Shown here in pieces: positions 16,714 through 62,167 of a stretch of DNA of 64,000 bases (the stretch's first letter is position 1; each line of letters starts with the position of its first letter). The notes under the pieces are model-generated. The model did no database searches. It was not told the DNA's origin and was given only the letters and a program-made list of their open reading frames with translations. This DNA comes from Rhodanobacter sp. B04 (GTDB lineage: Bacteria > Pseudomonadota > Gammaproteobacteria > Xanthomonadales > Rhodanobacteraceae). The translations under genes were made by a program, and so were the position numbers. The stretch is taken from assembly GCF_002001125.1 (NCBI RefSeq), contig NZ_MUNV01000008.1, forward strand, positions 62,001-126,000. Reading direction: 5' to 3'.

Positions 16714-19111
<2,398 letters not shown>

Positions 19112-19159
19112 TAAACTGCGACGCTCGCTGGTAGTGGAAGCCTGTCAGCAACAAGTTTT

Positions 19160-19325
19160 GGAGAGATGGCCGAGTGGTTTAAGGCAGCAGTCTTGACGCG
19201 TAGGCAGGAAGCCGAAGCGGACAGCGACGCAGTCGCTGGCCCCGAAGGGGCGAAGGGCAGGATGCCCGGAGCAAAACTGCCGTAGTGGCGCGCGAAGCGC
19301 GCCTTCGACAGGACAACGAGTTTAT
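19160..19325 (+). ncRNA. Chimeric tRNA-Ser 5'-half repeat, unit 1 (166 bp)
   Basis: Positions 19160-19196 are identical to the first 37 nt of the intact tRNA-Ser(UGA) at 19515, up to and including the anticodon TGA. A 76-nt insert then holds three hairpins: CAGCGAC-GCA-GTCGCTG, GCCCC-GAA-GGGGC and GGGCA-GGA-TGCCC. After it AAAACTGCCGTAG restores the 3' strand of the anticodon stem, followed not by the rest of the tRNA but by a GGCGCGC-GAA-GCGCGCC hairpin and a tail ending GACAACGAGTTTAT. Acceptor 3' strand and T-arm are missing, so it cannot be a functional tRNA. It may be a structured RNA or a decayed tRNA copy; see findings. Confidence 0.55.
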
Positions 19326-19514
19326 GGAGAGATGGCCGAGCGGTTTAAGTCAGCAGTCTTGACGCGAAGGTAGGAAGCCGAAGCGAACATCGACGAAGTC
19401 GATGGCCCCGAAGGGGTGGAGGGCAGAGCCTGTCCTGGACTTGATCCAGGAATGCCCGGAATAAAACTGCCGTAGTGGCGCGCAGCGCGCGCCTTGCAGC
19501 AGACAACGAGTTCT
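19326..19514 (+). ncRNA. Chimeric tRNA-Ser 5'-half repeat, unit 2 (189 bp)
   Basis: Second tandem copy of the same design. The tRNA part (19326-19362) differs from the real tRNA at two bases. The first insert hairpin is CATCGAC-GAA-GTCGATG, a double change relative to unit 1 that keeps the pairing. GCCCC-GAA-GGGG is kept. The GGGCA/TGCCC stem has its 3-nt loop expanded to 27 nt by a palindrome (TCCTGGA-CTTGA-TCCAGGA, 19433-19451). AAAACTGCCGTAG and the GGCGCGC-AGC-GCGCGCC hairpin follow, then GACAACGAGTTCT, directly abutting the intact tRNA-Ser. Confidence 0.55.
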
Positions 19515-19604
19515 GGAGAGATGGCCGAGTGGTTTAAGGCAGCAGTCTTGAAAACTGCCGTAGGTGTGAGCCTACCGTGGGTTCGAATCCCACTCTCTCC
19601 GCCA
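19515..19604 (+). tRNA. serT: tRNA-Ser (anticodon UGA)
   Basis: A complete 90-nt class II tRNA with encoded CCA. Acceptor GGAGAGA pairs with TCTCTCC, the anticodon arm GCAGT-CTTGAAA-ACTGC gives anticodon TGA (decodes UCA), the long variable arm TAGGTGTGAGCCTA and the T-arm GTGGG-TTCGAAT-CCCAC are intact. It is the only functional tRNA in the window and is preceded by two defective chimeric copies. Confidence 0.97.
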
Positions 19605-19611
19605 GCTTCAC

Positions 19612-19640
19612 AAAAAAGCCTAGTTTTATAGGCTTTTTTT
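19612..19640 (+). terminator. Rho-independent terminator of tRNA-Ser
   Basis: Stem AAAAAAGCCTA / TAGGCTTTTTT (11 bp) with loop GTTTTA and T-run, eight bases after the tRNA CCA end. A-run before and T-run after make it potentially bidirectional. Confidence 0.9.
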
Positions 19641-19780
19641 GTGAGTTGAGAGAAAAATGGCGCTTGGCGAAGTCGGTTGAACTGAGGTATGCGGTCGGTT
19701 GCTGCAAAAATTATTCGCGATCGCTCAGGAATGTGGTCAAATCGGCCCTGTTGGGTGGGGACTGACAGGGGATTGGGATC

Positions 19781-20752
19781 ATGCGCCACATCGGAAGTGA
19801 GTGGATCGCTGGCATCGTGTTGTTGCTGGCCATTTCAACCGCCTCGGCTCAGAGCACGGGCACAGTGACTTACATCTACACAGATCCCCAGGGGACCCCT
19901 CTGGCGGAAGCTGATGCCCAAGGCAACATCACGGCCACCTTCGATTACACGCCCTATGGCAGCCAAGCAAACGGCACACCTCCAAATGGGCCTGGCTATA
20001 CCGGTCATGTGAACGACCCGGACACCGGTTTGGTTTACATGCAGCACCGATACTACGACCCAACGACCGCTCGGTTTTTGTCAGTTGATGCTGTGCCGCC
20101 CAAGGCGGGCGACCTTGTTTCGTTTAATCGATACAGCTACGTCGGTGACAATCCGATCATGCGAACAGACCCCACGGGTGACTACCTGTGCGGCGGTTCA
20201 AAAACGCAGTGCGCCATAATCAGCAAAGCGTTGACCACTGTCTCCAATGCTGCCAAAAATTTGCCTGCCAACTCCAAGGGACAAGCGACGCTCAATGCCA
20301 TTGTTTCTTTCTATGGAAAGGAAGGTGTGGACAATCACGTTAACGTGGCATTTGGGTCAGCGAACGGAAACAACTCGATCACCGAGACCAAGGGTAACCA
20401 ACCAGAAACCCGAGTCACGACGATCACGTTCAACCTCGCCAACATCAAAATGACGGGCAGCAACCCTGGAACGAACGGTTCAGCAGAGCTTGCGGGTGCG
20501 GTTGCTCATGAGGGGCAAAATGGCATCACCGGGCGCTTCTTCGGTCAGCCAAGCAATCATGCAACCCTGCTGAACACAGAAATTAAGGGCTTCACGGCAC
20601 AGTCTTACGTCAACGAAGGAACAAACACGACCTCGCCTTATGGCCTTTGGACAAGTGGTTGGTCGGAAACACCAGAAACCAATGCGGCCCGCGATGCGTC
20701 AGCCTATTCAAACGCGCATGATGTGGCCTACCCACCGAGTGATGCGCAATGA
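19781..20752 (+). CDS. Orphan exported RHS-core protein with variable C-terminal domain
   Basis: A 323-residue protein with a signal peptide (IVLLLAISTASAQ, cleavage near 23). Residues about 28-135 are a single RHS/YD-repeat core segment (YIYTDPQGTPLAEADAQGN, then RYYDPTTARFLSVDAV, YSYVGDNPIMRTDPTGDY), the module that in full RHS proteins precedes the toxic tip. Residues 138-323 are a non-RHS domain with VAHEGQNG at 241-248; related RHS tips often carry a zincin-like HExxH, and here the second His position is Asn, so activity is doubtful. It lacks the 1000-residue shell of real Rhs effectors. Base composition is clearly less GC-rich than neighbours, suggesting transfer. Coupled to the next gene. 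Confidence 0.8.
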   Translation: MRHIGSEWIAGIVLLLAISTASAQSTGTVTYIYTDPQGTPLAEADAQGNITATFDYTPYGSQANGTPPNGPGYTGHVNDPDTGLVYMQHRYYDPTTARFLSVDAVPPKAGDLVSFNRYSYVGDNPIMRTDPTGDYLCGGSKTQCAIISKALTTVSNAAKNLPANSKGQATLNAIVSFYGKEGVDNHVNVAFGSANGNNSITETKGNQPETRVTTITFNLANIKMTGSNPGTNGSAELAGAVAHEGQNGITGRFFGQPSNHATLLNTEIKGFTAQSYVNEGTNTTSPYGLWTSGWSETPETNAARDASAYSNAHDVAYPPSDAQ

Positions 20753-60706: not shown

Positions 60707-62167
60707 TCAAGGTGATTGGACCAAACCAGTGTCGATACCGGCGGCGAGCTGTTCGCCCCAGGCCTGCAGCTGATCGAGCAGGGGCAGCTTGTCTTGCGCC
60801 GGCGGATCTTCGCGCAATTCGGCGATGCGGGTGAAGTAGTCTTCCAGGGTCAGGCCGGTCAACGCCGTGTGGCGCGTCAAGCGCGCCTGCCGGAAACGTT
60901 CCCAGCGCGAATGCTCGCCGGCATCCAGGGTATCCGGCCAGTTGCGTGCACGGTAGCGAAACAGCAGCTCCGGATAACGCGGGTCGCGGAATGGAAAGGC
61001 GCGCCTGCCCAGCTCCGCCGGCGGCGTGGCACGTACCTGGGCCAGCAGCTTCTTGTCGGCGTCGGGCAGGAAGCCGCCACCGTACAGCGCCAGCTCGGGG
61101 TCCTCCGGCGGCGGCAGTTCGGCGGCGCGCTGGAACACGCGGCGCAGCTTTTCGGTCAGCCCCTCCACCGCGCGCAGGGTATCGCGATGCGCGATGCAAC
61201 GGTCGAGGTCCAGTTGCAGACGATTCAAGTCGGTACCTTGCAGTACGGACAACGGCGCCAGCGCCGGTGCGTGATTGGCGCGCACGGTACGCAGCGGGAT
61301 GCGCCCGACGCCTTCCGGCAGGTCGGCGCGCGCGGTGAAGATGCGGTCGGCGATCTCGTCCTCGTCCAGCGCCAGCCATTCGGCCGGGTCGCTGGCCAGG
61401 TCGTACACGATCACTTCGCCGGCACGACTCGGATGTGGCGCCAGCGGCGCGATCACCGCCAGGCAATGCCGGCTGGCCGGATAGCGCGAGGACACATGCA
61501 CCACCGGTGTCATGTTCACCACGTCGAGCAGCTCGAACACCTTCTGCTTGCGGCGCAGGCCGTAATACCAGTCCCACAGCCGTGGCTGGCGCACGCGGAT
61601 CAGCCGGGCCAGACCGATCAGCGCGTATACGTCGGAGAGTGCATCGTGCGCGCGCTCCTGTTTCAGCTGGTTGGCGCTGGCCAGGTGCTCCAGCTTGAAG
61701 CTGGGCGTGCCGTCGTCTCGCGCCGGCCAGACGATGCCTTCCGGGCGCAGTGCCTGGCACAGGCGCACCAGGTCGATCAGGTCCCAGCGCGAGTTGCCGT
61801 TTTCCCACTCGCGGCCGTACGGCTCGTAGAAGTTGCGGTACAGCATCTGCCGGGTGAACTCGTCGTCGAAACGCAGCGAGTTGTAGCCGACGCCGCAGGT
61901 GCCCGGTTCGGCCAGTTGCTCGTGCACGCGTGCGGCGAATTCGGCCTCGCTGACGCCTTCGCGTTCGGCCTGTTGCGGGGTGATGCCGGTGATCAGGCAG
62001 GCATCCGGGTGCGGCGGCATCTCGCGTGGTGGCTTGCCGTAGAACATCACCGGCGCACCGATGATTTCCAGCTCCGGCGTGGTACGGATGCCGGCGAACT
62101 GCAGTGGACGGTCACGGCGCGGGTCGGCGCCGGAGGTCTCGTAGTCGTGCCAGAAGAAGGTCTGCAT
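60707..62167 (-). CDS. sbcB: Exodeoxyribonuclease I
   Basis: A 486-residue 3'-5' single-strand exonuclease. The DEDD residues are in [28 protein letters not shown] and [17 protein letters not shown]; the SH3-like domain and C-terminal helical domain ([21 protein letters not shown]) complete it. ATG 62167 starts [11 protein letters not shown]; the longer upstream frame has no homology. It is divergent from orn, another DEDD exonuclease. Confidence 0.95.

Follow-up and report, generated by a model that had tools for sequence, protein, structure and literature searches.

A tandem array of tRNA-Ser-derived units with recurrent GGA hairpin loops upstream of tRNA-Ser(UGA) in Rhodanobacteraceae: a candidate CsrA-binding leader

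tRNA-linked repeats (TLRs) have been known in Escherichia coli since 1978 and, as described in PMC8144298, are without a settled function. The same account includes RrA, RrB, and RrF, the TLRs of the rRNA operons, which bind CsrA in vitro via a looped GGA and whose deletion has modest effects only; for 19 repeats in E. coli tRNA operons, it gives no predicted CsrA binding (PMC8144298).

Csr sponges are known mostly as dedicated genes. The CsrB repeat reads CAGGA(U/A/C)G. The SELEX consensus of CsrA/RsmA sites is given in PMC3856055 as RUACARGGAUGU, with the sites often placed in hairpin loops. RsmU of Xanthomonas is an RsmA-binding RNA made from the 3′ UTR of an mRNA; as reported in PMC7694677, RsmA still bound RsmU in vitro when all four GGA motifs had been changed, and therefore, a GGA motif alone proves little.

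The locus described here lies in a 64,000-nt stretch (hereafter the window; contig NZ_MUNV01000008.1, forward-strand positions 62,001 to 126,000) of the 3.8-Mb genome of Rhodanobacter sp. B04 (G000), and consists of two tandem units of 166 and 189 nt directly 5′ of an intact tRNA-Ser(UGA) gene. As with the TLRs described in PMC8144298, the repeats adjoin a stable-RNA gene, carry a piece of that gene, and number one to five per locus (two here); structure is conserved among genera in both, and some TLRs bind CsrA via a loop GGA. In contrast to TLRs, the window's units lie 5′ of the gene, carry its 5′ half instead of its last 18–19 bp, and hold their hairpins enclosed inside the tRNA anticodon stem (PMC8144298); the rule that 18–19 bp at the 3′ end of a repeat reproduce the 3′ end of the upstream stable-RNA gene does not describe them. 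Units that carry an insert of the same family in the T-loop, 3′ of other tRNA-Ser genes, come closer to the E. coli repeats as characterised there (PMC8144298). The array appears to resemble a tRNA-linked repeat with CsrA-type sites that falls outside the E. coli TLR class by this 3′-end rule, and is a candidate Csr sponge.

Several short hairpins with GGA in the loop are a feature shared with CsrB/CsrC, RsmX/Y/Z, and RsmU as presented in PMC3856055 and PMC7694677, and the loop of the fourth insert hairpin (H4) matches the core of the SELEX consensus (PMC3856055) and also the CsrB repeat. Unlike those RNAs, the array gives no match to the Rfam models of CsrB (RF00018) or RsmZ (RF00166), has no gene of its own, and stands as tandem copies in what would be a tRNA leader, with CsrA binding predicted. 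A third likeness is to the GTAG REP/BIME elements treated in PMC3733652: the terminal hairpin of each unit (H5) stands behind GTAG, with one base between GTAG and stem, and head-to-head pairs of the insert, designated E, occur at related loci. E itself, however, lacks a GTAG foot, occurs infrequently in this genus, leans towards the sense strand, and keeps two GGA loops; Rhodanobacter is not named in the main text of PMC3733652. Arrays of this kind were not found described in the open-licence literature.

Layout of the array

Each unit runs from tRNA-Ser positions 1–37 through an insert of 76 or 100 nt, AAAACTGCCGTAG, and the hairpin that GTAG precedes to a short spacer whose end resembles the tRNA leader (Table 1). 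A sequence-only reading of the window had placed the two units at 19160..19514, 5′ of the intact tRNA-Ser, with 76 or 100 nt of hairpins inserted after the anticodon TGA, and both the coordinates and the insertion point are confirmed. The break follows CTTGA in both units and is exact only to one base, because an A comes next in either reading. The accompanying claim that each unit begins with the first 37 nt of tRNA-Ser is correct for unit 1; in unit 2, two bases of this half depart from the tRNA sequence. Unit 2 owes its added length to another hairpin (GAGCCTGTCCTGGACTTGATCCAGGA), which is nested within the H4 loop and is also present in one relative (G023, L010). After the insert, both units carry AAAACTGCCGTAG and end in a GGCGCGC/GCGCGCC hairpin, with no variable arm, T-arm, or 3′ strand of the acceptor stem.

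SerRS recognises the acceptor stem and the long variable arm of tRNA-Ser as identity elements. Both are missing from the units, and the closing pair of the anticodon stem is lost in 6 of 43 aligned units, which makes the previously suggested decoy of SerRS, as a tRNA-like RNA, unlikely. A tRNA intron, whether group I or bulge-helix-bulge, was likewise rejected: no 3′ half follows AAAACTGCCGTAG, so splicing would restore no tRNA. At the Rfam gathering score, no family besides tRNA was found in the window. Just 3′ of tRNA-Ser lies a gene for an RHS-repeat-like protein, and a 155-aa ORF runs antisense to unit 2 and the tRNA; the latter presumably belongs with the spurious proteins that are frequently annotated across tRNA-Ser genes.

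Table 1. Features of the array and its surroundings in the window (positions counted from the first base of the window).
Feature	Position	Strand	Remarks
Promoter-like CCTGATAAACT	19107..19117	+	Extended -10 type; putative promoter, 53 nt before unit 1
Unit 1, whole	19160-19325
Unit 1, 5′ half of tRNA-Ser(UGA)	19160..19196	+	tRNA positions 1-37
Unit 1, insert E	19197..19272	+	76 nt, four hairpins; window's best match to covariance model R1, 97.3 bits
Unit 1, H1	19203..19213	+	GGC-AGGAA-GCC; GGA 19207-19209, P unpaired 0.97 in leader fold
Unit 1, H2	19222..19238	+	CAGCGAC-GCA-GTCGCTG; covarying
Unit 1, H3	19239..19251	+	GCCCC-GAA-GGGGC
Unit 1, H4	19255..19267	+	GGGCA-GGA-TGCCC; GGA 19260-19262, P unpaired 0.58 in leader fold
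Unit 1, AAAACTGCCGTAG	19273..19285	+	3′ side of anticodon stem plus GTAG
Unit 1, H5	19287..19303	+	GGCGCGC-GAA-GCGCGCC, 3′ of GTAG; four covarying pairs
Unit 2, whole	19326-19514
Unit 2, 5′ half of tRNA-Ser	19326..19362	+	Two mismatches
Unit 2, insert E	19363..19462	+	100 nt; extra hairpin nested in H4
Unit 2, H1	19369..19379	+	GGT-AGGAA-GCC; GGA 19373-19375, P unpaired 0.98 in leader fold
Unit 2, H5	19477..19493	+	GGCGCGC-AGC-GCGCGCC
155-aa ORF	19322-19789	-	Antisense to unit 2 and tRNA
Intact tRNA-Ser, anticodon TGA	19515..19604	+	Rfam tRNA, 62.7 bits
RHS-repeat-like protein gene	19781-20752		Named by eye from translation

Conserved structure and distribution among relatives

Unit 1 folds with z = -3.0 (2/200 shuffles as good), and unit 2 more weakly, with z = -1.9 (10/200). 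Structure was followed in an alignment (A2) of BLAST-found units together with units from a pattern that already demanded the H1 GGA; 7 of its 49 units matched, or fell under, a left-out list, and 43 rows were kept. Across these 43 units, 98.6% of cells are paired in the named structure, as against 29%–42% in slid structures; 10 pairs show both-sided changes versus 4.4 +/- 1.1 in shuffles, and 56 cells do so versus 14.9. One H2 pair is G-C in 23/43 units and U-A in 19/43, four pairs of H5 covary, and there are two versions of the anticodon stem. The H1 stem proper is invariant across units, and alternative pairing is possible there. A set of 24 diverse inserts behaves similarly, with 96.9% of cells paired and 8 pairs with both-sided changes versus 3.9 in shuffles. 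The compensating changes noted earlier between units 1 and 2 (AGCGAC/GTCGCT versus ATCGAC/GTCGAT, among others) are present, and the proposed constraint on structure is upheld by further covariation in homologues, in the 43 units and in the 24 inserts alike.

The intact tRNA-Ser(UGA) of four relatives (G020, G027, G037, and G042; L030, L028, L022, and L054) has a CCGGT/ACCGG anticodon stem, most relatives having GCAGT/ACTGC. The units of G037 and G042 retain GCAGT, and that of G027 has a mixed stem; such mixed stem forms read as a trace of allele replacement or gene conversion.

Homologous units do occur outside the strain. Counted as BLAST matches from query position <= 3 to >= 96 of 121, they are present in at least 64 of 233 Rhodanobacteraceae genomes, in at least 13 of 26 genera, and in at least 24 of 45 congeneric genomes; among the matches listed, 169 of the family genomes and 21 of the congeneric ones have no unit. 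Tandem arrays hold one to five units, and counts among close relatives run from none to five. An exact-pattern scan of contigs of 84,980 species returned 39 stretches, 38 of which contain a unit or unit start and come from Rhodanobacter, Dyella, Fulvimonas, Oleiagrimonas, or metagenome bins; an Agromyces stretch, without tRNA context, was set aside as chance.

In loci long enough to compare, the order serS, small protein, units, tRNA is found in Rhodanobacter, Dyella, Fulvimonas, and seven further genera, the comparison leaving out genera g2–g5, g20, g24, and Oleiagrimonas. At 17 loci of other genera, the insert is 82%–95% identical to that of the window and the adjacent small protein 50%–71%. 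Copying from the adjacent tRNA could account for the 5′ half of the units, but not for the insert. The array is real, family-wide, and structured, and is probably transcribed.

GGA loops and the wider insert family

The sequence-only reading did not mention the GGA loops. In a set restricted to BLAST-found units, 84 of 87 parsed units have GGA at the H1 position, and 79 of 86 have it in the H4 loop (there were 89 candidates, of which 87 were parsed and 86 gave an H4 hairpin; two, the second match of L148 and L212, were false). The H1 and H4 loops are of the CAGGA(A/U/C)G type, and the H4 stem takes forms that include GGGCA/UGCCC, GGGACA/UGUCCC, GGCACA/UGUGCC, GGCGCA/UGCGCC, and GGAGC/GCUCC. 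The loops of H2 (GCA, GAA, GUA, AAA, and others), H3 (mostly GAA, also GCA and others), and H5 (15 forms in A2) are more variable. A constant GGA loop on a changing stem, as in H4, is characteristic of CsrA/RsmA sites, and binding is predicted by analogy with these.

In whole-unit folds, GGA is unpaired at P > 0.5 in 80% of 83 H1 sites and 94% of 79 H4 sites. The window has three GGA hairpin sites, two strong (19207 and 19373) and one moderate (19260); the H4 site has disappeared from the window's unit 2, as it has from three G065 units and from the amplified copies of G130/G131. In minimum free energy (MFE) folds, only 30 of the 89 candidate units (versus 18 of 400 shuffles) form at least two hairpin loops with GGA, a low score that arises because H1 often pairs elsewhere.

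The plan of E is H1, RAC, H2, H3, linker, H4, GGAGTC, and the tRNA-Ser(UGA) units are one of its several settings. Additional copies of tRNA-Tyr (L100–L103) and of tRNA-Ser(GGA) (L107, L112, L113, L124, and L125), which lie 5′ of the intact genes, carry E in the T-loop after TTCGA; E further occurs 3′ of the terminators of tRNA-Ser(GCT), (CGA), and (TGA), and beside tRNA-Gln. Away from tRNAs, E occupies the loop of a palindrome that also exists without it, as TTACTTTCTCTTTGCGTGGCC|AAAGAGAAAGTAA, in the same genomes (G001, G003, and G008), and other hairpins are nested in unit loops, H4 of the window's unit 2 included. Since the same insert family is present in T-loops and other hairpin loops, the idea of an element that targets the anticodon loop was abandoned.

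At E <= 0.001, a covariance model of E matches 97 of the 299 genomes searched in the order. Six of these, from other genera, hold at least 14–16 matches each, and E therefore behaves like a dispersed repeat in them. Within the genus, a strict pattern gave 20 matches in 8 genomes, 14 at tRNA loci (contexts read by eye) and 6 elsewhere. The window's genome has five matches by covariance model, and a high-copy repeat in this genome was rejected: sequences close to the H4 end number only six, and of these, three are identical to it or differ by a single base.

Two further arrangements were observed. At L110, L111, and L039 (G039, G012, and G002), head-to-head E pairs lie 3′ of tRNA-Ser(GCT)-type terminators, each pair joining one copy of the T-loop type to one of the anticodon-loop type on the other strand; these pairs form tandem repeats of ~256–260 nt, in which the 3′ end of the tRNA recurs in inverted orientation. 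In G130 and G131 (L266 and L269–L277), E lies inside a TTGGGGT/ACCCCAA palindrome in many near-identical copies, with TGA instead of GGA in the H4 loop.

T-loop inserts have H4 loops of CAUGGAUG or CAGGAUG type, and fixed-window MFE folds place GGA in the H1 loop of 28/55 and in the H4 loop of 42/55. A comparison of 67 distinct copies among 93 E matches found GGA near tRNAs in H1 of 28/32 and H4 of 31/32, and, with no predicted tRNA within 350 nt, in H1 of 34/35 and H4 of 29/35. Contrary to expectation, GGA was not kept significantly more near tRNAs than away from them (Fisher p 0.19 and 0.11); seven of the 35 copies away from tRNAs have tRNA-like flanks, and without these the counts become 28/28 for H1 and 22/28 for H4 (p 0.08). 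GGA is thus kept to a similar extent away from tRNAs, and therefore may be a trait of E, not of the leader.

Orientation was scored at 40 sites picked by eye, mostly from five genomes, with genes called by our own ORF/GC3 script. The raw count, 34/40 with a sense upstream gene, is unfair because convergent gaps always score so; hence, only the 20 codirectional gaps were used, in which dispersed E has sense orientation in 16 (p = 0.012). This sense-strand bias of 16:4 fits a role in RNA.

csrA is present in all 45 congeneric genomes, and E copies lie behind it in at least 13 of the 45. E follows csrA-tRNA-Ser(GCU) in 13 of 17 genomes with the csrA locus examined (16 of 21 locus records), a biased sample in that most loci were chosen because E was already known there; of six loci chosen blind (G000, G014, G029, G037, G038, and G039), two have E behind csrA, and the window's own genome has none at this place. 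Whole-genome searches for Csr RNAs, which covered the CsrB and RsmZ models, matched 0/41 genomes for CsrB, with the E. coli positive control found, and 0/45 for RsmZ, with none of 14 control genomes positive.

Proposed leader function and competing explanations

Of 49 distinct upstream sequences from unit-bearing loci, 26 have the promoter-like motif CTGATA <= 95 nt 5′ of the first unit and 39 have it <= 250 nt 5′; 0/89 candidate units contain it. Its spacing to the tRNA is similar in L032 and L034, which lack units, and it is absent there in L033. No other place in the window's genome matches the 5′ half of tRNA-Ser(UGA), and therefore, the tRNA-Ser(UGA) gene is probably transcribed through the array.

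In the model we propose, extra tRNA-Ser copies would have gained E in the anticodon loop, a GTAG-hairpin would have replaced their 3′ half, and these modified copies would then have multiplied in tandem. The array would form the structured 5′ leader of the pre-tRNA-Ser(UGA) transcript, each unit supplying two GGA-loop hairpins (H1 and H4) of putative CsrA/RsmA type. RNase P cleavage at the tRNA 5′ end would release a free leader, here with two strong GGA hairpins and one moderate. CsrA dimers would be held on this leader while the tRNA is made, and the leader would thereby reduce the unbound CsrA pool in proportion to both tRNA synthesis and unit number. A transcribed, tRNA-linked, CsrA-binding leader RNA with sponge-like action, derived from a partly mobile element, is the reading that we favour tentatively, at somewhat short of an even chance.

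A possible, if doubtful, alternative is that E is a palindromic repeat acting at the DNA level—non-autonomous, and similar to REP/BIME or IS200/IS605 elements—which enters the loops of extruded hairpins, tRNA arms included, with arrays arising by slippage, the GGA loops being seen by a recombinase, and no role in RNA. The palindrome that is both filled and empty in the same three genomes is consistent with this, as are the hairpins nested in hairpins, the GTAG preceding H5, the abundance of E in six genomes outside this genus, and the GGA kept in copies away from tRNAs. Y1 transposase domains occur in 7/8 genomes; G010, however, has a unit but no such domain. Also against a DNA repeat are the scarcity of E in this genus with most strict-pattern matches at tRNA loci, and the sense-strand bias; the changing stems, constant GGA loops, and kept position across genera exceed the needs of mobile DNA.

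Improbable, in our view, is a leader acting only in cis, in which the units fold against or delay the pre-tRNA and so set the level of tRNA-Ser(UGA) without CsrA. The units do copy the 5′ half of the tRNA that follows, sit between the promoter-like motif and the gene, and have an anticodon stem that tracks the tRNA in some genera (CCGGT/ACCGG in L072 and L090). Nevertheless, numbers from none to five between close relatives argue against it, and it leaves E at other tRNAs, intergenic E, and the GGA loops unexplained.

Both insertion points, the anticodon loop and the T loop, are classic integrase crossover sites. Simple degeneration of duplicated tRNA genes, or an origin as leftovers of integrative elements at such attachment sites, is most improbable, even with tRNA fragments a known trace of integration as noted in PMC9897764, because the inserts covary; they are also ~75–100 nt long without a coding element and conserved between genera, and an origin from phage or plasmid was rejected, the units having no match in phage or plasmid records.

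Returning to the favoured CsrA-binding leader, a broader and speculative form, which we consider unlikely to hold in full, would make E a partly mobile CsrA-binding RNA module that enters hairpin loops, namely tRNA anticodon and T loops and intergenic palindromes, and thereby connects the CsrA pool with tRNA operons, with many 3′ UTRs, and in some genomes with the csrA locus. Tandem tRNA-linked modules would then serve Rhodanobacteraceae instead of a dedicated CsrB/RsmZ gene, with a sponge capacity that rises with tRNA transcription and evolves by copy number.

The array is a candidate CsrA antagonist for a family where searches with the CsrB and RsmZ models gave no match. With its CsrA sites predicted, it may represent a new way to tune CsrA; if true, a covarying GGA-loop array in the tRNA-Ser leader, together with the copies behind csrA, would tie tRNA synthesis to the Csr network.
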